Part shown: positions 4,278 to 22,492 of the stretch, piece after piece | How positions within the stretch are numbered: position 1 is the stretch's first letter | Layout of the letters: each line of letters starts with the position of its first letter | Source of the DNA: a virus | Length of the DNA stretch: 22,895 nt | Strand: one strand, 5' to 3' | Virus record (IMG/VR): IMGVR_UViG_3300026473_000584 | Coordinates: 1-22,895 of that record | The notes under the pieces: model-generated | Told to the model about the DNA's origin: nothing | The model's input: only the letters and a program-made list of their open reading frames with translations | Database searches by the model: none | Position numbers and translations under genes: made by a program

Positions 4278-4561
4278 CGTAGTTCATCATATGTTTGAAC
4301 AATGGCAATTTTACTAGGATCAGATTTACTGTCGCTAGGTACTGGTAAGGTTTGCCATTCTTCTTCGCTGACGTCACAGACTATAACTAGTTCGTATTCG
4401 TGTCCATCTGAACTGTAGCATCGGACGGTTTCTAGTCCCGCTAGACCCTGGGCGGCATCTTCTAGATGTCTAGCCAGGGATCTTAGTGCGGATCGTTCTG
4501 CTACAATATAACCTCGTGTACCTGGTCCTTGGTGTGAATGTAAGTGTATTCTTGATTTCAT
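4253..4561 (-). CDS. Small unknown protein coupled to DnaE-like gene
   Basis: 102 residues, starting in an ATGA overlap with the stop of the polymerase gene, which implies translational coupling. Sequence shows HLHSHQGPGTRGYIV, a helix rich in Ala/Leu (SALRSLARHLEDAAQGLAG) and a strand-rich middle ending in a six-serine tail. The Ser tail is encoded antisense to the acidic Glu/Asp tail of the convergent plus-strand gene, so the two C-termini share 25 nt. No family recognised; co-transcription with a polymerase suggests but does not show a DNA-metabolism role. Confidence 0.65.
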   Translation of the reverse strand: MKSRIHLHSHQGPGTRGYIVAERSALRSLARHLEDAAQGLAGLETVRCYSSDGHEYELVIVCDVSEEEWQTLPVPSDSKSDPSKIAIVQTYDELRQSSSSSS

Positions 4562-6231
4562 TGTATGTGTGCTATGTCGATTAATTTTAATTTTTTAGAT
4601 TTAAACACTGTAACATATTCTGTGTTGTTTTTGTAGCCAAGTTTACCGAATCCCCACAAAACTGGATGATCTTGAAAACTTGCCGCGTGTGGTAGCACAA
4701 CATCTAGGTAACGGCCATTACCAGTACCCAGTGTGACAAAGGTTATATAATCTTTCGCTCCTGATTTAAACACACGATAGTTAGCCACTAGACCACAAAA
4801 CTCCACCTGGCCGGGCTTGCGTATTTCCTGACAGGCTGGTATAAATCTTGAAGAACGCCAACGTCCCTGTTCAATGAGATCACTTACCTCGCCACCTTCT
4901 CCCAATGAGGGAACTGCGCCAGCTAATTTGGCTTCCTGCCAGTAGACCCAGTGTGCGTAACTACCCTGGCAGTGTTTGAGTGCAGCTTGCCAAAACTTTT
5001 CTGGGTTATGAGCTTTTTGGTAGGCCAAGGCCCAGATAAGTCTGCCTAGATTTATGGCGTGTGCTCGGCAAAGTCCGAAGTGACTGAGTTCTCGTAGTGC
5101 TAGTAGTACATCATCTCGTCTTGGATGATCACCCACTAACTGCATAAACTCAAACATTTTTTCTTCATTCTTTTTTGCAAATGCACGACGCCACATATCA
5201 GCTTCATACTGATCACAACCTAGTATCTGTCCTATTAGTTCAATGGCATCATCTTCAAAGACAATAGTTTCTGATAGGTTATCTTTTGTCCAGTCCTGGA
5301 AGGCACTGGCTCGGCGGCGGCCTTGTGTGGCCACTGGTCTTATTAGTGCTGTGGCCAATACGCAGTCGGCACGACTAGTGGGACGTATGGCTCTAAATAA
5401 TCTTTTCATAGCAGGACTTTCTGCCTGCGTAACACCCAGTATGTCTCCACGACTTAATAGAGCTGAGGTTTTGTCATCTGTTTCAGGATAATCCAAGAGG
5501 TCACGTTGCTCTATTTCCCAGAGCTGACTAAGTCCACGGTTGGATAATATGTCTATTTTAAAATGCTCAAGATCTTCTATCTCATATTTGTCTAGTAGTA
5601 TCTGATTCTCACCGTTGATTAAACTTTTAGGTACACTACGATCAAATATCAGTATGCCGCCACAGTGTTTAGAGATACATCGTTTTTTGCCTAGTAGTTT
5701 ATCTGCTAGACGTTCTGCTTCATCAACGTATTCTTCTGCCACAACGTCTGATAGTTTAAAATTACGTTTGAGTTTACCCTTGGCGCCGTAGCGTTTGGCA
5801 GCTTCGCGTCTTGCTGATTTTTCTTTGTAGGTGACATAGTTACTTACACGGGCACTCTGACCGGGCCAGCGGCGGAAGATTCTGTTCATTACAGTTTCTT
5901 GTTGATAATGCGGAAAGTCAAGATCAATGTCGGGTAGATCGTCCCTCTTGGGATTCATAAAACGTGAAAGGGGTATACGTTCTTTTATGGGATCTACATC
6001 ACTGATGCCCATCACGTAACAGATTAAACTGCTGCCTGCTGAGCCACGAGTTATATGTGGTATGTCTTGTGTTAGGTCTAGTATTTCTCTTACACGTAAA
6101 AAATGTTTGGCAAATCCCAGTTTAGCTATTATCTCTAGTTCTTCTTCAAGTCTTTTAGTATATTCTTCAGTGTCGGGTATTGATCTAGTAAATTTTTTAA
6201 TTAGTTTTTCGAGTTCGTCATATCGGTTCAT
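4558..6231 (-). CDS. PHP-less DnaE-like family C DNA polymerase
   Basis: 557 residues aligning with the catalytic core of bacterial DNA polymerase III alpha. RGSAGSSLICYVMGISDVDP and the palm motif PDIDLDF (D101, D103 aligning with E. coli D401, D403) are followed by HCGGILI and FKIDIL, where D227 aligns with the third catalytic Asp (E. coli D555). Later blocks (ADMWRRAFAKKNEEKM; a GRLIWALAYQKAHNPEKFW helix) match the fingers and following region, and an OB-like segment (VEFCGLVANYR) lies near the end. The N-terminal PHP domain and the beta-binding/tau-binding tail are missing, so it is about half the usual ~1100 residues. It could be the replicative or an accessory polymerase. AGGTGA precedes the ATG and a TATAAATA box lies 30 nt upstream. 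Confidence 0.87.
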   Translation of the reverse strand: MNRYDELEKLIKKFTRSIPDTEEYTKRLEEELEIIAKLGFAKHFLRVREILDLTQDIPHITRGSAGSSLICYVMGISDVDPIKERIPLSRFMNPKRDDLPDIDLDFPHYQQETVMNRIFRRWPGQSARVSNYVTYKEKSARREAAKRYGAKGKLKRNFKLSDVVAEEYVDEAERLADKLLGKKRCISKHCGGILIFDRSVPKSLINGENQILLDKYEIEDLEHFKIDILSNRGLSQLWEIEQRDLLDYPETDDKTSALLSRGDILGVTQAESPAMKRLFRAIRPTSRADCVLATALIRPVATQGRRRASAFQDWTKDNLSETIVFEDDAIELIGQILGCDQYEADMWRRAFAKKNEEKMFEFMQLVGDHPRRDDVLLALRELSHFGLCRAHAINLGRLIWALAYQKAHNPEKFWQAALKHCQGSYAHWVYWQEAKLAGAVPSLGEGGEVSDLIEQGRWRSSRFIPACQEIRKPGQVEFCGLVANYRVFKSGAKDYITFVTLGTGNGRYLDVVLPHAASFQDHPVLWGFGKLGYKNNTEYVTVFKSKKLKLIDIAHIQ

Positions 6232-11247: not shown

Positions 11248-11703
11248 ATGAAACGAGGCGAATTGTTAGATAAAGCACTACTAATTGCCACTAATGCCCA
11301 TCACGGACATTTTGATAAAGGTGGCGCACCATACATTCTGCATCCGCTTAAAGTTATGCACTATCTAAAAAGCGATGACGAAGAATTAATGGCAATGGCA
11401 CTTATGCACGATGTAGTGGAAGACACCAGCACCACCTACACAGACCTTCGTGAAGCTGGTATGACAGAAAGAGTCATTGCTGGTGTAAGGGCACTTACCA
11501 AAGTTCCTGGGGAAACTCTAGATGAGTACAAGGAAAGAATATTCGCAAACAAAGATGCTATGCGTGTCAAATCAGCAGACCTTAGACACAACAGCGATAT
11601 CCGCCGCCTCAAGGGCGTAACAGAAAAAGACATTGCCCGTATCGCCAAGTACCATACTTTTTATCTGGAAATTAAAGAACGCCTGGCAGCTATTAAAGAG
11701 TAA
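11248..11703 (+). CDS. HD-domain (p)ppGpp hydrolase-like protein
   Basis: 151 residues resembling the hydrolase half of SpoT/Rel and the free-standing MESH1/SAH enzymes: AHHGHFDKGGAPYILHP (first metal His and the nucleotide-binding block), LMHDVVEDT (HD pair H54-D55 plus ED), and KSADLRHN (final metal Asp and the Asn). These enzymes remove pyrophosphate from (p)ppGpp, and MESH1-type proteins also act on NADPH. No synthetase or TGS domain is present. A phage copy could lower the starvation alarmone during infection. A GTG frame start at 11230 is rejected because the GAAGGAG site would lie inside it; it serves the ATG at 11248. Confidence 0.85.
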   Translation: MKRGELLDKALLIATNAHHGHFDKGGAPYILHPLKVMHYLKSDDEELMAMALMHDVVEDTSTTYTDLREAGMTERVIAGVRALTKVPGETLDEYKERIFANKDAMRVKSADLRHNSDIRRLKGVTEKDIARIAKYHTFYLEIKERLAAIKE

Positions 11704-11743
11704 AATTTAAACACTTTTAAAAATAAATTAAACAGGAGTATAT

Positions 11744-12136
11744 ATGAAATTTGATCGCCGGGTAAATTTTATAACAAAAACAGATGGTAAAGGTTATTGG
11801 TCCGAGACAAAAAAAACTGTAAAAATCAACCGTGTGGTATTAGCTAGTATTAGCGATGATAGTAGCTACGGTGAACTTCGTGCCTACTTTGATCCTAAAG
11901 ATTGGAACGTTGATCGCGATGGCTTAATTTATTCTGATATTTTTTGGAAACACACATTCCTGACCTGTATGGAAAAAACTTTTGGTTTCAGTCCTGATGC
12001 CATACTGGATGTTTCCTACACAGAGCAAGGTATGCAGGGTGTGGATTATGTGAGTCTAGATGTTGGCGAACAGTTTATTACTGAATGTGATGCACTTTAT
12101 CGCTTTGCAATTAAAAAGGAATCAGTTAACAATTAA
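11744..12136 (+). CDS. Unknown protein, 130 aa
   Basis: Starts MKFDRRVNFITKTDGKGYW after ACAGGAG. Strand-rich, with Tyr/Trp/Asp clusters (YFDPKDWNVDRDGLIYSD), FLTCMEKTFGFSPDAI and VSLDVGEQFITECDALYRFAIKK. Looks like a globular cytoplasmic protein. No family recognised. Separated from the HD gene by 40 nt and probably read from the same promoter. Confidence 0.7.
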   Translation: MKFDRRVNFITKTDGKGYWSETKKTVKINRVVLASISDDSSYGELRAYFDPKDWNVDRDGLIYSDIFWKHTFLTCMEKTFGFSPDAILDVSYTEQGMQGVDYVSLDVGEQFITECDALYRFAIKKESVNN

Positions 12137-12457: not shown

Positions 12458-12724
12458 ATGAGAACAGCATTCCAAGGCCTTACTACCCAAGAAATCCGCG
12501 AAGTTTCGATGTACGGTTGCACTGAAGCGCAGATGCGCGAAGCAGTGGAGTCTAGTATTACTTTTCGACTTTCTGGTCCTGAGATGGTTGTTGCTGGTAT
12601 GATGAGCGACGCACAGGAGATGATGGCTTTTGAACAGCCTGACTTTAATATAATTGAGGATCAGCGTCAACTTCTTAATCGTGCAAAATTTGTGTTATTT
12701 ACCTACATTATGGATCGTAAATAA
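12458..12724 (+). CDS. Small helical protein, 88 aa
   Basis: MRTAFQGLTTQEIREVSMYG, then predominantly helical and Met-rich (EMVVAGMMSDAQEMMAFEQ) with a basic C-terminus (FTYIMDRK). Ribosome binding site AAGGAG 8 nt upstream and a consensus promoter. First gene of a unit that runs into rIIA and rIIB. Unrecognised. Confidence 0.7.
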   Translation: MRTAFQGLTTQEIREVSMYGCTEAQMREAVESSITFRLSGPEMVVAGMMSDAQEMMAFEQPDFNIIEDQRQLLNRAKFVLFTYIMDRK

Positions 12725-12725
12725 T

Positions 12726-12872
12726 ATGAATAAAACTTTACTGGATTGTCTCTACGAAGAACTTGTTATGCTGGATGAGCAGGCTGGTTGCTTTGATGAA
12801 GAAACTAACGCTCGTATTGATGAACAGCGTAACAAACTCTATAATCAAATTAAAGAACTGGAAGTAAATTAA
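12726..12872 (+). CDS. Small helical protein, 48 aa
   Basis: MNKTLLDCLYEELVMLDEQA followed by a charged helix ending KLYNQIKELEVN; heptad spacing of Leu/Ile suggests a helical hairpin or coiled coil. A longer frame from 12654 lies inside the previous gene and is rejected. One base separates it from the preceding stop and its TAATG overlaps the rIIA start, so it is translated in the rII operon. Confidence 0.68.
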   Translation: MNKTLLDCLYEELVMLDEQAGCFDEETNARIDEQRNKLYNQIKELEVN

Positions 12873-15037
12873 TGATTATCAATAATGCACCCCAAGAACA
12901 GGCAGTGGTAAGCAATGTTAACGAGATTGGTGAATTCCGTATCCGTAACAGTGCAAAAGCTTTTAACATTCTTTCGTCAGGTCTTTATGCCAACAAAATT
13001 CGTGCAATTATACGAGAGCTATCGTGCAATGCTGTGGACAGCCACGTGGCTGCTCAGCGTGGTGATCTACCTTTTGACGTCCATCTTCCTAATGCGCTAG
13101 AACCCTGGTTCAGCATTCGTGACTACGGCACAGGCCTTAGCCACGAGCAGGTCACCAACATCTACACCACCTACTTTGAAAGCACCAAGACCGAAAGTAA
13201 TGATTTTATTGGTGCTCTTGGTCTGGGTAGCAAGAGTCCCTTTAGCTACACTGACAACTTCACTGTGACCGCGGTGCAGAATGGTCAGCGTGGCATCTAT
13301 ACTGCCTTTATCAATGATCAAGGTGTGCCCAGTATTGCCCTGATGATGCAGGATGCCAGTGACGAGCCCAACGGTGTTGAGGTTAAGTTTAGCGTAAACG
13401 ATCGTTCGGACTTTGATCGTTTTCGTCAGGAGGCTATCTTTGTCTATCGTTACTTTAAACTACGTCCCATAATTTCAGGTTGTGAAGGTTTTACATTTAG
13501 CGAACCAGAATACCTTGATCAGGATATCATTCCCGGTGTGCATACTTCCTCCAAGTCGCGGCACGGCGACAGTGTGGCTATTATGGGTAACATTGAGTAT
13601 CCAATCTCTGTACCTAATGCAGACAAAGGACTTGGTGATCTAGCTAAACTTCTAGAATGCGGTCTTGTTATGGAGTTTGACATTGGCGAACTGGATTTTC
13701 AGGCCAGCCGTGAAGGTCTTAGCTATGTTCCGCAGACTATTCTGGCTATCAAGAGCAAGTTAGAAAAACTCAAGGCTCAGCTCACTGTCAAGGTGGCAGA
13801 AGAAGCTGACAAAATTGACAACCTCTGGAAACGTAGCTACTACCTTATTGAACGTAGCCATCACCTGCTCTGGCGTCCCGCAGTGCAACAATACATAGCT
13901 GACAGTGGTTTTAAATTAATTAATGCCCAACAATCTAGTTATGTCAGTGTCCATCGTTTTCGCCCCTACGTTGATGATCTTGCTGCTAATTTTAATATTG
14001 TTATTAAAAGTTTTAGCAGATCACGTGGTATGGACACCTGTCAGAGTCGCAAGCCCCATAAAGAATATAAACCCAACACACCAGACCAACTGATGTTCTG
14101 GGAAATCCTTGCCAGCACAGTTACTCATTTTGTAGTAAACAAATCCAAACTGGGTGGATTGGAGCGTACTAAACATCATTATCGTAGACATAGTATAATC
14201 CCCCAGGGCGAACATAATGTAGTGGTCTATGTCATTGAAGCCAAGGATCATAGCCAGCCAATGAAACTAGATGAGTTCTGGCAGTATCTAGAAAATCCTC
14301 CTGCCGAGCAAATGTTTGACATTGACGATCTAGACAAAAAACCACGTGCTAGCACGGGCCTAGGTCAAAACGTTACTCTGCTCAGTCTGGAAGAGCGTAG
14401 TGTACGTGGAGGATACAGTCATCAGAAAAAATATGTCTGGGCTGATGCTGGTAAACTTACCAGCTACGACAAGTCACAGCCCTTTTACTATGTGCCTCTA
14501 GTTGGTTACCAGGCACAGGGTGTATTTGATGATGCCAAGGATCTTAAAGATTATTTGGTAAAGGCTGACATCTTCACAGGTCGTATTTTTGGAGTAAGAA
14601 AAGCTGATCTTAAGACTGTGGAAAGTCAAAAAAATTGGATAAACATAGACCAATTTGTCCGGGAAAAATTGTCCGAAGTGAACAAGGACTCTGTGATGGG
14701 TATGGTCAAGTCAGCCATTGACTTTAAAGAAGTTTTCAAGCATAATGATGCTATTGCGCTGATTGATGCTCGTAGTCCCTATGTACAATTTTTTAATATT
14801 TTTCGGGATGTACGTGCCGTTAACAGTCGTGTGGAAAGTGCTCAGCAATACTTGTTCAAGAGGTATGGTATTAACTCACAGGTGGGTGATCCCGGTCAGT
14901 TAATTACAAAGTATCGTAAGGAAATTGAAGAGATAACTAAAAGATATCCTCTGTTGTTGAATATAAGTTCCTACAGCACCACTAACGAAGCACTAGCAGA
15001 ATATATTAACGCAATTGATCTAATGAAAGGTATTTAA
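12872..15037 (+). CDS. rIIA: RIIA-like GHKL ATPase
   Basis: 721 residues. The N-terminal third has the Bergerat ATP-binding fold of GHKL ATPases: N box IIRELSCNAVDSH (E49, N53, D56), G1 box RDYGTGLS (D84, G86, G88) and G2 box GALGLGSKSPFSYTDNF (G114-G119). The rest lacks familiar motifs and matches the long, poorly understood C-terminal part of T4 RIIA-type proteins. In T4, RIIA and RIIB are membrane-associated proteins needed to grow on RexAB lysogens and they influence lysis and replication. TAATG overlap with the upstream small gene; rIIB begins 1 nt after its stop, the classic rIIA-rIIB arrangement. Confidence 0.9.
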   Translation: MIINNAPQEQAVVSNVNEIGEFRIRNSAKAFNILSSGLYANKIRAIIRELSCNAVDSHVAAQRGDLPFDVHLPNALEPWFSIRDYGTGLSHEQVTNIYTTYFESTKTESNDFIGALGLGSKSPFSYTDNFTVTAVQNGQRGIYTAFINDQGVPSIALMMQDASDEPNGVEVKFSVNDRSDFDRFRQEAIFVYRYFKLRPIISGCEGFTFSEPEYLDQDIIPGVHTSSKSRHGDSVAIMGNIEYPISVPNADKGLGDLAKLLECGLVMEFDIGELDFQASREGLSYVPQTILAIKSKLEKLKAQLTVKVAEEADKIDNLWKRSYYLIERSHHLLWRPAVQQYIADSGFKLINAQQSSYVSVHRFRPYVDDLAANFNIVIKSFSRSRGMDTCQSRKPHKEYKPNTPDQLMFWEILASTVTHFVVNKSKLGGLERTKHHYRRHSIIPQGEHNVVVYVIEAKDHSQPMKLDEFWQYLENPPAEQMFDIDDLDKKPRASTGLGQNVTLLSLEERSVRGGYSHQKKYVWADAGKLTSYDKSQPFYYVPLVGYQAQGVFDDAKDLKDYLVKADIFTGRIFGVRKADLKTVESQKNWINIDQFVREKLSEVNKDSVMGMVKSAIDFKEVFKHNDAIALIDARSPYVQFFNIFRDVRAVNSRVESAQQYLFKRYGINSQVGDPGQLITKYRKEIEEITKRYPLLLNISSYSTTNEALAEYINAIDLMKGI

Positions 15038-15038
15038 T

Positions 15039-15806
15039 ATGAGCTACCCTTATATAATCCAGGGCAAAAACATCACTGTGGTCATTGATAATGTACCGCA
15101 TACTATTAGTAATACTCACATCACCTACCAGAAGGTTCTTGATGCTATCAAGGCCGAGGACTGGACACAGGTGCGTGACATCATTGAACCACGTAAGGTT
15201 GTGTTGAACTACGGCCAGGGCAATGTCAGTATCCAGGGTGAAAAGATGTTCTGGAAGGGCCGCGAGTTTCATAATGCTATGAGCCGGCGTATGATTCAAA
15301 TGCTGCAAGAAGGTTTCAGCATCGAGCCTCTGGTTAACTTTATGGATAACCTAATGGAGAATCCCAGCCATCGCAGCGTAAACGAACTCTACGGTTTTCT
15401 AGAAAAGAACAACCTTCCTATCACACCCGACGGCCATTTCTTAGCCTACAAGCGAGTGCGCGAGGATTACCGGGATTGCCATACTGGAACTATGGATAAC
15501 AGTGTGGGTAAAATTGTAGAGATGGAACGTAATTCAGTGGATGACAATTCTAGCAACACCTGCAGCTCGGGTCTACACTTCTGCTCACAGGAATACCTGA
15601 GTAGTTTTGGTGGTGAGCGAACAGTGATCGTCAAGATTAATCCACGCGATGTGGTTAGTATTCCCAACGATTACAATAACAGCAAGGGTCGTGCCTGCCG
15701 TTATGAAGTAATTGGTGAGGTTGGTGTACGTCAAGAAGATGAAGAGCAGGATTTTACTGCACCAGTACAGGAAAATGCCAACTCTGTACCTGATAGCCTA
15801 TACTAA
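15039..15806 (+). CDS. rIIB: RIIB-like protein
   Basis: 255 residues. Contains the RIIB-type core: TYQKVLDAIKAEDWTQV, the FHNAMSRRMIQMLQEGFSI helix, PLVNFMDNLMENPSHRSVNE, FLEKNNLPITPDGHFLAYKR, and the C-terminal CSSGLHFCSQEYL with two Cys, then IKINPRDVVSIPNDYNNSKGR-like wording with RYEVIGEV. RIIB acts with RIIA; in T4 both affect host membrane physiology and exclusion. It directly follows rIIA and ends a run of co-oriented genes. Length is below T4 RIIB (312). Confidence 0.9.
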   Translation: MSYPYIIQGKNITVVIDNVPHTISNTHITYQKVLDAIKAEDWTQVRDIIEPRKVVLNYGQGNVSIQGEKMFWKGREFHNAMSRRMIQMLQEGFSIEPLVNFMDNLMENPSHRSVNELYGFLEKNNLPITPDGHFLAYKRVREDYRDCHTGTMDNSVGKIVEMERNSVDDNSSNTCSSGLHFCSQEYLSSFGGERTVIVKINPRDVVSIPNDYNNSKGRACRYEVIGEVGVRQEDEEQDFTAPVQENANSVPDSLY

Positions 15807-15876: not shown

Positions 15877-16131
15877 ATGCGATTACAATGTCATTATCAT
15901 CAACCTGATGGAAGAGCCAGGCCACAGCCCTGGTGGGAAAAGTTTCGTACTGACACCTTTGGGCTAACACATCATTTTTATATTGACTCAATAGCACCAC
16001 AGTACTATGTGGTTAGATTACGAGAGCGATTACAGGATTACAATGGTTACCTAATAGAAACACACTTTGGTGAAGTCTTGGAGTTTGACGACGAGCAAGA
16101 CGCAACCTTTTTCCTGTTGACCTGGGGTTAG
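15877..16131 (+). CDS. LRW-tail family protein 1
   Basis: 84 residues from the ATG at 15877. Pattern shared with the next genes: a strand with a Trp-rich first half (QPWWEKF), a middle strand pair, then an acidic DDEQDATFFLLTW ending. A TTG at 15817 extends the frame but would run through the hairpin after rIIB, and 84 residues fits the paralogue sizes (67-85), so 15877 is preferred although its ribosome binding site is poor. First of seven consecutive genes. Function unknown. Confidence 0.6.
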   Translation: MRLQCHYHQPDGRARPQPWWEKFRTDTFGLTHHFYIDSIAPQYYVVRLRERLQDYNGYLIETHFGEVLEFDDEQDATFFLLTWG

Positions 16132-16132
16132 C

Positions 16133-16378
16133 GTGAACAGCAAACAGCGAAGACTGGATCGTAGAAAATGGCGTTATAATGTTAGCGTTAAAACACCTAG
16201 CTTTCAAAGATACATTGATCAATGGAGCTGGCTGGATGAACGTTTTGGTAGAATAATCGCGGAATGTGGCTGGCGTGAGCACCGAGAAAATGCTGACTGC
16301 TGGGACATTACAGGATATTCCATCTGGGAGTTTGAACGTGAGCGTGACGCAAGTGAATTTGCTCTGAGGTGGTCCTAA
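16133..16378 (+). CDS. LRW-tail family protein 2
   Basis: 81 residues with a GTG start 1 nt after the previous stop, CCTGGGGT serving as ribosome binding site. Basic N-terminus (KQRRLDRRKWRY), then VSVKTPSFQRYIDQWSWLDE, and the family ending FERERDASEFALRWS. Stop and next ATG overlap (TAATG). Confidence 0.7.
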   Translation: MNSKQRRLDRRKWRYNVSVKTPSFQRYIDQWSWLDERFGRIIAECGWREHRENADCWDITGYSIWEFERERDASEFALRWS

Positions 16379-16728
16379 TGCCAAAAATTTATAACAAAAA
16401 AACTCTATGTGATGGCCAGAACATTTACCTGATGGGCTGGATCAAGCCCTACGAGTTTAGTAAATTTTATCGAGAATTCAACCAGGATGCCCTTATTCAC
16501 AGCTGGAGTGATCAGCAGCAGGCGCATATGGCTATGGCCCGTGCCATTAAATTTCATCTTCCCCAGCTGGCTAAATGGTTAGGGGAGAATAATGCCAAGA
16601 CCACGCACTGGATAGATCCTGAAATTTTTGAGGTTTATCCCGAAGCTGATGGCAAGGGTTTCGACTGGGGAATTGGTTTTAAACCTGGTGATCCACTAGA
16701 AAGCTGGTTTGTAGTAAGGTGGTCCTAG
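16378..16728 (+). CDS. LRW-tail family protein 3 (divergent, 116 aa)
   Basis: 116 residues from the ATG in the TAATG overlap. The longest member: an extra helical block (DQQQAHMAMARAIKFHLPQL) precedes the family-like second half that ends ESWFVVRWS. A GTG start 9 nt earlier lies within the RWS codons of the previous gene and is rejected. The AGGTGG in the previous gene's RWS codons acts as its ribosome binding site. Confidence 0.7.
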   Translation: MPKIYNKKTLCDGQNIYLMGWIKPYEFSKFYREFNQDALIHSWSDQQQAHMAMARAIKFHLPQLAKWLGENNAKTTHWIDPEIFEVYPEADGKGFDWGIGFKPGDPLESWFVVRWS

Positions 16729-16729
16729 A

Positions 16730-16933
16730 ATGATTAACAAAATTTTTCCACTAAGAGTTGCAGTACCTATTTACGGAAACGATGAATGGCGCAGGGTCGT
16801 AAACTGGCTGGAAGATCAGGCTGCTGGTAAATGGCATTATATAGGAATCAAGACCAGTGCTGACAGTCATCTTAGGGTATTTGCTTTTAGGCAAGAACAA
16901 GATGCTATGATGTTTTCTCTAAGGTGGTCCTAG
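16730..16933 (+). CDS. LRW-tail family protein 4
   Basis: 67 residues, the most compact copy: RVAVPIYGNDEWRRVVNWLE (strand, then amphipathic helix ending in W-L), a strand pair (WHYIGIKT, LRVFAFR) and the ending RQEQDAMMFSLRWS. Starts 1 nt after the previous TAG, with AGGTGG of the previous gene 7 nt upstream. Confidence 0.72.
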   Translation: MINKIFPLRVAVPIYGNDEWRRVVNWLEDQAAGKWHYIGIKTSADSHLRVFAFRQEQDAMMFSLRWS

Positions 16934-17191
16934 ATGGTTTTTAGGTATAGACCCAATGAGTATGATTATAAAATTACAATTCCCGAGACAGACATACAGG
17001 AGACAATAGCCTACCTGTCGGAACTCTGGGGAGAACCAAACTGGCAAGATAATGAATTTGTGGGTAATGATGTCTGGTGTGTAAGTACCATACATCAAGT
17101 AGACGTAGATCTTTATACAGTGTGCAGTCTGGGGTTTAATTCTGGTCCGGCACTGGCCTGGGCATTGTTAAAATGGGAAACTTATCAATAA
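16934..17191 (+). CDS. LRW-tail family protein 5
   Basis: 85 residues starting right after the previous TAG. YDYKITIPETDIQETIAYLS matches the strand-helix start of the family, with NDVWCVSTI as the middle strand. The tail is degenerate: ALAWALLKWETYQ, without the E-x-DA element and with four extra residues. Confidence 0.7.
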   Translation: MVFRYRPNEYDYKITIPETDIQETIAYLSELWGEPNWQDNEFVGNDVWCVSTIHQVDVDLYTVCSLGFNSGPALAWALLKWETYQ

Positions 17192-17192
17192 T

Positions 17193-17399
17193 ATGAATAA
17201 ATCCTATCCCTTGTTCAAATGTAAGGTTGCAGAAATGTATGCCAAACTCAGCTGGTGCGAACAATATCTTGGTCCCAGCGGCGAGCGTTGGTATCGCGAT
17301 CGTGGCTATCTCTGTTTCTGGGAGGAGAAAGATTATATGTGGTTTAAATTGCGTTGGTTAGGTGACAGCAAGATACTGGAATGGCGTGAGCTATCTTGA
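17193..17399 (+). CDS. LRW-tail family protein 6
   Basis: 68 residues beginning 1 nt after the previous stop. FKCKVAEMYAKLSWCEQYLG gives strand and helix with the W-C pair also seen in protein 7, then WEEKDYMWFKLRW followed by a 12-residue extension (LGDSKILEWREL and S). The stop overlaps a TTG start of the next gene. Confidence 0.7.
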   Translation: MNKSYPLFKCKVAEMYAKLSWCEQYLGPSGERWYRDRGYLCFWEEKDYMWFKLRWLGDSKILEWRELS

Positions 17400-17611
17400 A
17401 ATTTAAATATAAAGTTAGTGTTAGCAAACGACAGTACCACAATCTTATGGAGATGATGGACTGGTGCCGTGATAGCATTGGTGGTGGAGGCTATATAGCA
17501 CATCACGATTGGGATTCCTGGCATATAGAATCTGTGTTTGGAAATTCGACCTTTAGTTTTCGGCGTGAACAGGATGCAGTTATGTTCGTGCTGAAATGGC
17601 CTAGTGAATGA
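17396..17611 (+). CDS. LRW-tail family protein 7
   Basis: 71 residues from a TTG start that overlaps the previous stop (TTGA). KYKVSVSKRQYHNLMEMMDW, CRDSIGGGGYIAHHD, SFRREQDAVMFVLKWPSE: the cleanest full pattern together with proteins 2 and 4. There is no in-frame ATG before the first helix, so TTG is required. Confidence 0.7.
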   Translation: MKFKYKVSVSKRQYHNLMEMMDWCRDSIGGGGYIAHHDWDSWHIESVFGNSTFSFRREQDAVMFVLKWPSE

Positions 17612-17626
17612 GTAAATGAGAACGAA

Positions 17627-18034
17627 ATGGATAAAGATAAACGACAACTATTATTTTCTGTAACCAAGGACGACTGTGACTGGAGTTATACACGAGGAAC
17701 TGGTAATGGTGGACAAAAAAAGAATAAAACTAACTCAGCAGTTCACTGTCGCCATAGAGCGTCAGGTGCCCGTGGTTACAGTGAAGCTAGCCGTAGTCAG
17801 CTGGACAACCGAAGAGACGCCTTTGTCAAAATGTGCAATACCGACGAGTTCAAACGATGGCATAAACTCGAAACCCTCAGACGAACAGGAATGATGGATC
17901 AAATTGATCGCAAGGTTGCAGAAGAGTTGACAAAGATTAAATTAGAAATTAGAATAGATGGTAAGTGGACTGAAGTTAAAGAAAGCCAGTTAGTTGATGA
18001 TCCTGACGATTTTAAATTTGAGGTAAGCGTATAA
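17627..18034 (+). CDS. GGQ-domain release factor-like protein
   Basis: 135 residues with the peptidyl-tRNA hydrolysis loop of class I release factors: YTRGTGNGGQKKNKTNSAV (GGQ at 28-30), then RHRASGARGYSEASRSQLDN. The Gln enters the ribosomal peptidyl transferase centre and triggers release. The codon-reading domains are absent, and the C-terminus (DDPDDFKFEVSV) is acidic, unlike the basic mRNA-channel tail of ArfB, so it is not a simple ArfB. Possible roles: rescue of stalled ribosomes during infection, or cooperation with a partner. Weak ribosome binding site. TAATG overlap with the next gene. Confidence 0.85.
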   Translation: MDKDKRQLLFSVTKDDCDWSYTRGTGNGGQKKNKTNSAVHCRHRASGARGYSEASRSQLDNRRDAFVKMCNTDEFKRWHKLETLRRTGMMDQIDRKVAEELTKIKLEIRIDGKWTEVKESQLVDDPDDFKFEVSV

Positions 18035-18243
18035 TGAACGAACGAATCAAAGAATTGATGGTAAAATCTGGTGCATACAATCATTATGAAATTAATGAGG
18101 GTGTCAACGGTGATGAACTACCAATGGTTAAGTTCGCCGAATTGATTGTGAAAGAATGTGTTGAGTTGTTTGATGGAAATGAACAGTCAGAATTAGGCTA
18201 TCGTATCGGCGACAGGATTTATAAACATTTCGGAGTTAAGTAA
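18034..18243 (+). CDS. NERI/HFG family small protein A
   Basis: 69 residues: MNERIKELMVKSGAYNHYEI, central KFAELIVKECVELFDG, and the end YKHFGVK. This N-terminal NERI, middle FAELIVKEC and C-terminal HFGV layout recurs twice more within 0.9 kb and is familiar from many tailed phages as short uncharacterised proteins. Coupled by TAATG to the genes on both sides. Confidence 0.8.
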   Translation: MNERIKELMVKSGAYNHYEINEGVNGDELPMVKFAELIVKECVELFDGNEQSELGYRIGDRIYKHFGVK

Positions 18244-18350
18244 TGAAAATTATTACAGTACTTGTATCTTGGATTATTATGCCCATCGCTATAATTGTGG
18301 TCGCATATGATATAGCCAAATGCTTTGTAGAGAGTAAGGTACTCAAATGA
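18243..18350 (+). CDS. Tiny membrane protein, 35 aa
   Basis: MKIITVLVSWIIMPIAIIVV then AYDIAKCFVESKVLK: one membrane span with a short cytoplasmic tail. Starts in a TAATG overlap with protein A and ends in an ATGA overlap with protein B; these tight junctions support translation. Confidence 0.62.
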   Translation: MKIITVLVSWIIMPIAIIVVAYDIAKCFVESKVLK

Positions 18351-18547
18351 ACGAACGAATTCGGGAATGTATGTATAATGCAGGTTTGAATTCTAATTAC
18401 GTTGAAGGATTTAATAGCATTTATTCCGAGCAACTAGAAAAGTTCGCCGAGTTGATTGTTAAAGAATGTGCTGAACTATCAGTAACTGACTGGACTGGCT
18501 ATGCTATCAGTGAGAAGATTAAACAACATTTCGGAGTTGAAGAATGA
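18347..18547 (+). CDS. NERI/HFG family small protein B
   Basis: 66 residues: MNERIRECMYNAGLNSNY, KFAELIVKECAEL, KIKQHFGVEE. Clear paralogue of protein A with the same three motifs in order; the DNA around AAGTTCGCCGA and TTGATTGT is also nearly identical, so duplication is recent. ATGA overlaps at both ends. Confidence 0.8.
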   Translation: MNERIRECMYNAGLNSNYVEGFNSIYSEQLEKFAELIVKECAELSVTDWTGYAISEKIKQHFGVEE

Positions 18548-18708
18548 ATGAAAAACTAACATATGAAGAATGGCGTAAACGATACACAGTGTCATTTGGT
18601 GATGATATAAAGTCTCAACTGCAAGAACTTCATAATATTGATGCTGATGCGGAAATTGAAAAAGCAATGCGTCTGGAATACGATTTTTATTTGAAAGGAA
18701 TTGACTAA
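18544..18708 (+). CDS. Small charged protein, 54 aa
   Basis: MNEKLTYEEWRKRYTVSFGD, then a helical acidic stretch (SQLQELHNIDADAEIEKAMR) ending FYLKGID. Coupled by overlaps to proteins B and C. Not a NERI family member. Unrecognised. Confidence 0.65.
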   Translation: MNEKLTYEEWRKRYTVSFGDDIKSQLQELHNIDADAEIEKAMRLEYDFYLKGID

Positions 18709-18926
18709 TGAACAAACGAATTACTGAACTAATGATAGAGGCTGGACGAAATATTCCAGGAGATAAACACATTGATGCTGATTTTTGCGACAGGTTCGCC
18801 ACACTGATAATATGTGAATGCTTAGATGTATTTGGCAAAGATCTACCCGAGCCCAGTGCTGATCATCGAATGATTGAGGTAATCAATCGTATTTGTAATG
18901 TAACAGATCATTTTGGAATACAATAA
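18708..18926 (+). CDS. NERI/HFG family small protein C
   Basis: 72 residues: MNKRITELMIEAGRNIPGD, RFATLIICECLDVFG, VTDHFGIQ. More diverged copy of proteins A and B with the same motif order. Starts in a TAATG overlap. Confidence 0.75.
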   Translation: MNKRITELMIEAGRNIPGDKHIDADFCDRFATLIICECLDVFGKDLPEPSADHRMIEVINRICNVTDHFGIQ

Positions 18927-21949: not shown

Positions 21950-22112
21950 GAAAACCAATCTAGAAATCCTAGCAGAACAGGTAGCGTTACTTGATCAGAA
22001 TCAACTACTTGAATTTGCTAGAATTTTGACTAAGACGTATCCTGCTCATACAGATTTTCTAGAATCCTATATTAAAATTTCTTGGCAAGAAATAATTTTT
22101 GAGGAAGTATAA
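21942..22112 (+). CDS. Small helical protein, 56 aa
   Basis: MNKKTNLEILAEQVALLDQN followed by QLLEFARILTKTYPAHTDFL and a hydrophobic-acidic end (WQEIIFEEV). All-helical. AAGGAG lies 7 nt upstream within the previous gene, which it overlaps by 8 nt; TAATG overlap with the next gene. Unrecognised. Confidence 0.68.
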   Translation: MNKKTNLEILAEQVALLDQNQLLEFARILTKTYPAHTDFLESYIKISWQEIIFEEV

Positions 22113-22492
22113 TGGTTAAGCCTTACTGGGAAACAAGCGAGTGGTCGGACAATACACCCAATCACGTCTACTTTCTGGATGACAGCAAGAGCAAGATGTA
22201 TGCCTACGTCATACAGGGTGATGCGGAAGTGACCAAGGTCTTTAATAAACCCATTCGCTTTGATTCGCGGTATCGTAAATTTGTAGAAGTGCCCAACATC
22301 TGGGACGCAGAATTTGAAGAAGTAGAACTAAAGGGTCTAGCTGTTAATGACCCAAGTTGGGAATTTGAAGGCAGTAAAGGTGCCAAATATACAGTGACGC
22401 TGACCCAGGGTGCCTACAATTGTACTTGCCCGGGTTTTACCTACAGAGGTAAATGTAAACACGTTGACTCTTTAGACAAGGAAGCAAAATGA
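22112..22492 (+). CDS. SWIM zinc-finger protein
   Basis: 126 residues. The C-terminus YNCTCPGFTYRGKCKHVDSL is a SWIM zinc finger, CxCx8CxH with C104, C106, C115 and H117. SWIM domains bind DNA or proteins and occur with helicases, transposases and recombination factors. The N-terminal 85 residues form a strand-rich domain with YVIQGDAEVTKVF and FDSRYRKF but no known motif. Stop overlaps the ligase ATG (ATGA), so it may be a partner of the ligase or of replication. Confidence 0.82.
   Translation: MVKPYWETSEWSDNTPNHVYFLDDSKSKMYAYVIQGDAEVTKVFNKPIRFDSRYRKFVEVPNIWDAEFEEVELKGLAVNDPSWEFEGSKGAKYTVTLTQGAYNCTCPGFTYRGKCKHVDSLDKEAK

Follow-up and report, generated by a model that had tools for sequence, protein, structure and literature searches.

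Arrays of small phage proteins from one undescribed family, with a conserved end that may double as the ribosome-binding site of the next gene

Five of seven consecutive small genes in a 22.9 kb virus record (IMGVR_UViG_3300026473_000584; this whole stretch of DNA is referred to here as the window) belong to one large, undescribed family of small phage proteins of about 60–110 aa. As the first-pass annotation had reported, seven small ORFs stand in a row on the + strand at 15877-17611. They lie between an rIIB-like gene (15039..15806, +; phrog_609, E 3.3e-83), itself preceded in the window by rIIA, and a gene directly after the array that encodes a small RF-1 domain protein of 135 aa (17627..18034, +; phrog_3122, E 1.7e-23; PF00472, E 7.2e-12). 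At E 0.001, the seven ORFs gave no PHROG and no Pfam match. The explanation that we consider best, and reasonably probable, is that the family consists of cassettes with a conserved domain, the end of which doubles as the predicted ribosome-binding site of the next gene. What computation shows is the family and its spread, the fold predicted for one member, the effect of context on codon choice and the reordering of genes; that ribosomes use the tail site and that it couples translation is what we infer from sequence.

Membership in the window was tested with a profile built without the window rows, and the score of each gene was compared with those of 2000 shuffles. Gene 1 (15877..16131, +; 84 aa, tail FLLTWG; 18.5 bits), gene 2 (16133..16378, +; 81 aa, GTG start, tail FALRWS; 31.7 bits), gene 4 (16730..16933, +; 67 aa, tail FSLRWS; 46.7 bits), gene 6 (17193..17399, +; 68 aa, FKLRW followed by 13 residues; 39.8 bits) and gene 7 (17396..17611, +; 71 aa, TTG start, FVLKW followed by three residues; 65.2 bits) each outscored every shuffle (0/2000). 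In contrast, gene 3 (16378..16728, +; 116 aa from the ATG at 16378, tail FVVRWS) was matched or beaten by 1002/2000 shuffles and gene 5 (16934..17191, +; 85 aa, ending LLKWETYQ) by 139/2000, leaving their membership unsupported by sequence. The hhalign probabilities were 93.7 for gene 1, 2.3 for gene 3, whose alignment to the family covers only the last eight residues (the FVVRWS end), and 0.7 for gene 5, while the controls, two genes from nearby in the window, scored 1.3 and 0.2. Because the shuffle test and hhalign agree, we regard five of the seven genes as related by sequence. With gene 7 as query, genes 2, 4, and 1 were recovered from the window at E 3.7e-5, 1.7e-4, and 0.0037. Window genes 1, 2, 4, and 7 were among the seeds by which the profile's members were originally collected, and these four are therefore not fully independent tests; gene 6 was absent from the seed and so provides the cleanest confirmation. 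No relatives of genes 3 and 5 were found, for gene 3 by viral scan, and a single-sequence fold of gene 5 (pLDDT 53) was too poor to use. The first-pass annotation had described all seven as paralogue-like, with a constant C-terminal element and a shared LRW-type ending. The paralogy holds for genes 1, 2, 4, 6, and 7 but not, by shuffles and hhalign, for genes 3 and 5, and the ending is less uniform than described, since it reads LTWG in gene 1, VVRWS in gene 3, LLKWETYQ in gene 5, and LRW plus 13 residues in gene 6.

Beyond the window, a scan for rIIB relatives yielded 52 loci, and one of them, L060, on a 264.6 kb contig, showed a run of the same tails; reading its ORFs revealed an array of 13 consecutive members. 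A seed of 11 sequences (A2), four of them from the window, was used for a second scan that gave 42 loci. An iterated profile search over 104 loci, comprising 17,121 stop-to-stop segments, returned 484 segments at E 0.01 or less, with up to 41 in one 20 kb locus and 422 non-redundant members altogether. A replicate set was obtained by scanning IMG/VR with a DNA pattern for the coupled tail, which matched in at least 120 stretches. Among the 80 pattern-fetched loci listed, 79 held at least one member and 69 held three or more, and these 80 loci contributed 414 new non-redundant members, bringing the total to about 830. When whole records were searched, the maximum was 47 matches in a 154 kb contig, with 34 in a 354 kb contig, and all 18 records had matches, having been chosen for earlier hits. 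Eight named isolates were also searched with the profile (E 0.01 or less): Sinorhizobium phage Phosso had 45 matches and Agrobacterium phage Atu_ph07 had seven, and there was no match in T4, PAU, XacN1, CcrPW, SCTP-2, or CM1. The Phosso matches (PV764938.1) are scattered in clusters at about 3-14, 95-100, 113-117, 348-349, 369-370, 405-408, and 451-461 kb, and thus represent many separate small arrays in one genome. Synteny with rIIB is loose, because a family member lay inside the fetched flanks of only 10 of the 52 rIIB loci; in L011, the closest relative, different genes stand downstream of rIIB. tRNAs were present in three of 13 loci scanned (L104, L105, and the Phosso locus L119).

Assignment to a known family was attempted and rejected, as Pfam, PHROGs, NCBIfam, PADLOC, and PDB sequence searches gave no repeated match. 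At E 0.01, 124 members hit three PHROGs families and two Pfam families, each with a single member, and no NCBIfam family. By profile, hypothetical proteins of Atu_ph07 and Phosso belong to the same family; the Phosso genes are annotated as hypothetical where examined and, unlike the coupled arrays, rarely contain the embedded AGG site described below. Genome contigs scanned with A2 gave 11 pattern matches and no confirmed relative, a scan with a single pattern that is therefore no evidence of absence from bacteria. No description of the family was found in the literature searched, mostly without subscription papers and preprints. New here is the combination of a shuffled gene order with a conserved protein motif joined to a Shine-Dalgarno site within the upstream gene.

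The DNA encoding the tail depends on what follows it. Members were classed as coupled when an ATG opening a frame of 40 codons occurred within 8 nt after the Trp codon, and as uncoupled when no start codon occurred within 15 nt; 14 of 422 members without a recognisable tail were dropped, as were 48 of the remaining 408 with an ambiguous downstream start. Before a close start, the LRW codons typically read (TT)GAGGTGG, which is Shine-Dalgarno-like. In the first set, Arg was encoded by AGG in 156 of 192 coupled members versus 1 of 29 uncoupled members. As background, AGG accounts for 7.0% of the 6028 Arg codons found in long ORFs from these loci, and for 8.4% of the 1362 in the bodies of family genes. 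Within the 20 loci that hold both classes the difference persisted (AGG in 90/114 coupled, 1/28 uncoupled), and it recurred in the replicate set (115/163 coupled, 3/24 uncoupled), from which 51 hits already in the first set and 74 matching the scan pattern had been dropped. Where Lys replaces Arg, the codon was AAG in 42 of 77 coupled and 10 of 42 uncoupled members. The ratio of Arg to Lys also differed, at 192:77 in coupled and 29:42 in uncoupled members, with 163:37 versus 24:24 in the replicate. As members are related to each other, Fisher P values for these comparisons overstate independence. Exceptions among coupled members are the 36 of 192 Arg members with a codon other than AGG and the 77 with Lys.

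Of the 305 members with an ATG within 15 nt, 161 have it 2 nt, 73 have it 5 nt, and 29 have it 7 nt past the Trp codon. In the arrays, a Shine-Dalgarno-like site thus lies a short, fixed distance ahead of a start that overlaps or adjoins the preceding gene, which is the arrangement that characterizes coupled arrays. Of 280 coupled starts, 129 had GAGGTG as the best Shine-Dalgarno string ahead of them, in contrast to non-family coupled junctions of the same loci, where neither GAGGTG nor an RW in the last six residues occurred (0/139 for each); long genes in these loci favour AAGGA/AGGAG-type strings, where any is present. The gene following a coupled member was itself a detected member in 182 of 280 cases, and the site would therefore also serve other genes. 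The window follows the same rule, genes 2 and 4 being coupled and using AGG, and genes 6 and 7 being uncoupled and using CGT (Arg) and AAA (Lys), respectively. A DNA search of the window found the exact 11-mer AGGTGGTCCTA, overlooked by the first-pass annotation, at three junctions in a placement like that of a ribosome-binding site. It encodes the RWS of gene 2 (16367..16377, +), gene 3 (16717..16727, +), and gene 4 (16922..16932, +), and is the proposed Shine-Dalgarno of genes 3 (ATG 16378), 4 (ATG 16730), and 5 (ATG 16934), respectively; none of 100 shuffled windows contained three matches. The element is confined to these three junctions of the window, one of which follows the unsupported gene 3, so it can occur without the family.

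A structure of gene 7 predicted by AlphaFold2 with 124 members (pLDDT 91.0, pTM 0.80) adopts a beta-alpha-beta-beta-alpha arrangement, with strands at 5-9, 42-47, and 50-55 and helices at 11-27 and 58-67. The conserved columns W23, W42, F55, D60, F64, L66, and W68 fall in or beside these predicted elements and are probably buried in the model, and the LRW tail runs along the last helix and ends it. The conserved end, about F.F..E.DA..F.LRW, would thus be the last strand and helix of the domain. A BFVD search returned one hit below E 0.001 (A0A6J5L980, E 2.2e-6, TMq 0.85); many others, from uncultured phages, had probability 0.9-1.0 and E above 0.001. Comparison with the PDB revealed common alpha/beta arrangements only (Foldseek best E 0.45; VIA best Z 6.3), and in comparison with ferredoxin-like, RRM, ACT, and NGN folds the model, ordered beta-alpha-beta-beta-alpha, lacks a final strand.

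Several other explanations for the constant end and variable bodies were weighed against the cassette explanation. The tail could be only a translation signal, with unrelated bodies and an LRW that is simply what a ribosome-binding site spells, as the first-pass annotation had allowed when it named the condition that would overturn its own proposal. The strong tie between AGG and a following start favours this reading, as does gene 3, whose body is unrelated by sequence even though it carries the exact 11-mer. However, an upstream F, E.DA, and F are conserved besides LRW, together with a Trp in helix 1 and another in strand 2, and the scores of the five window genes exceed those of all shuffles. 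Furthermore, most uncoupled members keep the peptide (R or K in 71/80, W in 60/80), and a 69 kb stretch of Phosso contains 16 members at E 0.01 with FKL-type ends and mostly non-AGG codons; among the 15 readable tails (one of the 16 was unreadable), five have Arg, and AGG is used in two of these five. Since the peptide is kept both in uncoupled members and in Phosso, it is conserved on its own account, and since the tail persists where coupling does not, it is best regarded as both protein core and probable ribosome-binding site. The scarcity of the embedded site in Phosso makes it a habit of lineages rather than a rule of the family, and the sequences suggest that an RNA signal was superimposed on a conserved peptide in some lineages. 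We therefore reject a pure translation signal for five of the seven genes, while gene 3 fits it, and as a general account we consider it very improbable. Nor is there support for a free tail read by one shared receptor, which the first-pass annotation had also suggested. A docking tag or degron for a single partner, with the bodies as interchangeable effectors, would account for a constant end on variable bodies and for the 317 of 408 members that end one residue after the Trp. Against it, 89 of 408 members have 2-39 residues after the Trp (two have none), the one-residue ending is commoner in coupled (236/280) than in uncoupled members (47/80), as if the start/stop overlap fixed the end, and the tail residues form part of the helix that closes the predicted domain. 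The additional residues in particular disfavour a docking tag, to which we give little credence. A role for the proteins in translation, through RNA or the ribosome, is suggested by a weak resemblance in topology to domains of the EF-G, ACT, and RRM types (VIA Z at most 6.3) and by neighbouring genes, namely the RF-1 domain gene in the window and tRNA and peptidyl-tRNA hydrolase genes in Phosso. Yet Foldseek found nothing in the PDB below E 0.45, and a VIA Z below 8 may mean no more than a common arrangement; this reading too is improbable.

The remaining alternative concerns how the arrays arose. The first-pass annotation had proposed tandem duplication within the array and then fast, arms-race divergence of anti-defence proteins, and such a history could leave arrays whose copies differ as much as these do, placed in an accessory region near rIIAB. 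Best hits within the same array dominate in L105 (9/13) and L090 (7/12), and one pair in L085 is 61% identical, and so some local duplication does occur. Across 415 members, however, the best match lay in another phage for 371, in the same array for 40, and nowhere for four. Each of the five window members is most similar to a gene of another phage and not to a neighbour in the array; for gene 2 this match is in L081 at 43% identity. For close orthologues the median dN/dS was 0.15 (range 0.03-0.43) in the 38 of 56 pairs that were not saturated, indicating purifying selection at that time scale and opposing an arms race. A search of 124 members with PADLOC, which is a library of defence rather than counter-defence systems, gave one hit (E 0.0017) and no repeated one. 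Tandem duplication with arms-race divergence is thus unsupported by the best-hit and dN/dS data, and we consider it unlikely. Instead, by comparison of sequences, the arrays look like shuffled cassettes drawn from a shared pool rather than fresh local duplicates. Between L082 and L086 there are 13 reciprocal best hits (32-86% identity) but no conserved adjacency, and 7 of 12 steps are in order; L104 and L117 keep one adjacency. L080 and L100 are collinear, as are, apart from insertions, L099/L102 and L102/L110. Near-identical loci (L083, L088, L108, and L111) and overlapping loci of contig G001 were omitted from some of the comparisons. Of 31 close pairs (at least 70% identity), 19 lost DNA similarity no more than 12 nt from the stop codon, 11 kept it beyond, and one missed. 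Similarity that ends at stop codons fits whole-gene exchange without proving recombination in the tail, and such an end is expected for any whole-gene replacement.

Under the cassette explanation, large phages would keep long arrays of interchangeable small-protein cassettes with the predicted beta-alpha-beta-beta-alpha domain. In most array members the codons for L-R-W, typically (TT)G AGG TGG, would also form the Shine-Dalgarno of the next gene, whose ATG would usually overlap the stop codon or lie a few bases away. Each cassette would then carry in its tail a ribosome-binding site for whatever follows, and reordering, gain, and loss would be possible while the chain stays translatable. A more elaborate version, which we hold at slightly less than even confidence, is that the C-terminal helix was captured as a portable ribosome-binding site, producing self-contained cassettes, a message translated as a chain, and reshuffled libraries of dozens of small host-directed proteins, with selection on the RNA signal shifting the choice between Arg and Lys. 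More tentatively, individual members may bind different host or competitor proteins in takeover or counter-defence, a reading that the large numbers, small size, and accessory location fit; the open face of the sheet and the loops would vary among members.

A Shine-Dalgarno sequence inside the upstream gene is ordinary at start/stop overlaps, and the family resembles such junctions in that the upstream coding sequence would supply the initiation site. Unlike at ordinary overlaps, the family site is found at a single set position and reading frame within a conserved protein motif. Integron gene cassettes are also single-gene units shuffled within an array, as these arrays appear to be, but the units described here share one protein family and end in a predicted ribosome-binding site that is itself coding. 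A further parallel is the lineage-specific expansion of zinc ribbons in Bacillus phage G, with about 35 copies, again a case of a jumbo phage in which a single tiny domain occurs tens of times (PMC7824862). The domain is a different one, and a dual-coded tail and cassette shuffling are not reported in the parts of that source drawn on here (PMC7824862).

If the cassette explanation is right, it would name more than 800 phage proteins missed by current libraries and give a simple reason for the recurring tail, as protein core plus ribosome-binding site. It would also open to testing the way in which large phages build up and reshuffle their banks of small proteins, for which a single DNA pattern, by itself matching in at least 120 stretches of IMG/VR, offers a search handle.

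Other genes in these records were noted in passing. By eye, a second set of look-alike small genes follows the array in the window (18034-18243, 18347-18547, and 18708-18926) and, in L060, separates rIIB from the array (11326-11568, 11565-11807, and 12554-12895); its members have in common a MNERI/MNKRI start and cores of the FAELIVKEC type. Proteins with a CxC...CxH end, alike by eye only, are encoded at 22112-22492 in the window and at 18738-19097 in L060, where the gene immediately precedes the 13-member array; we take this protein to resemble a SWIM-type zinc finger. Finally, a DNA polymerase ORF of 557 aa in the window (4558-6231, -) aligned to positions 347-828 of the 1190-position phrog_405, and because it covers only part of that family the polymerase may be split or partial.
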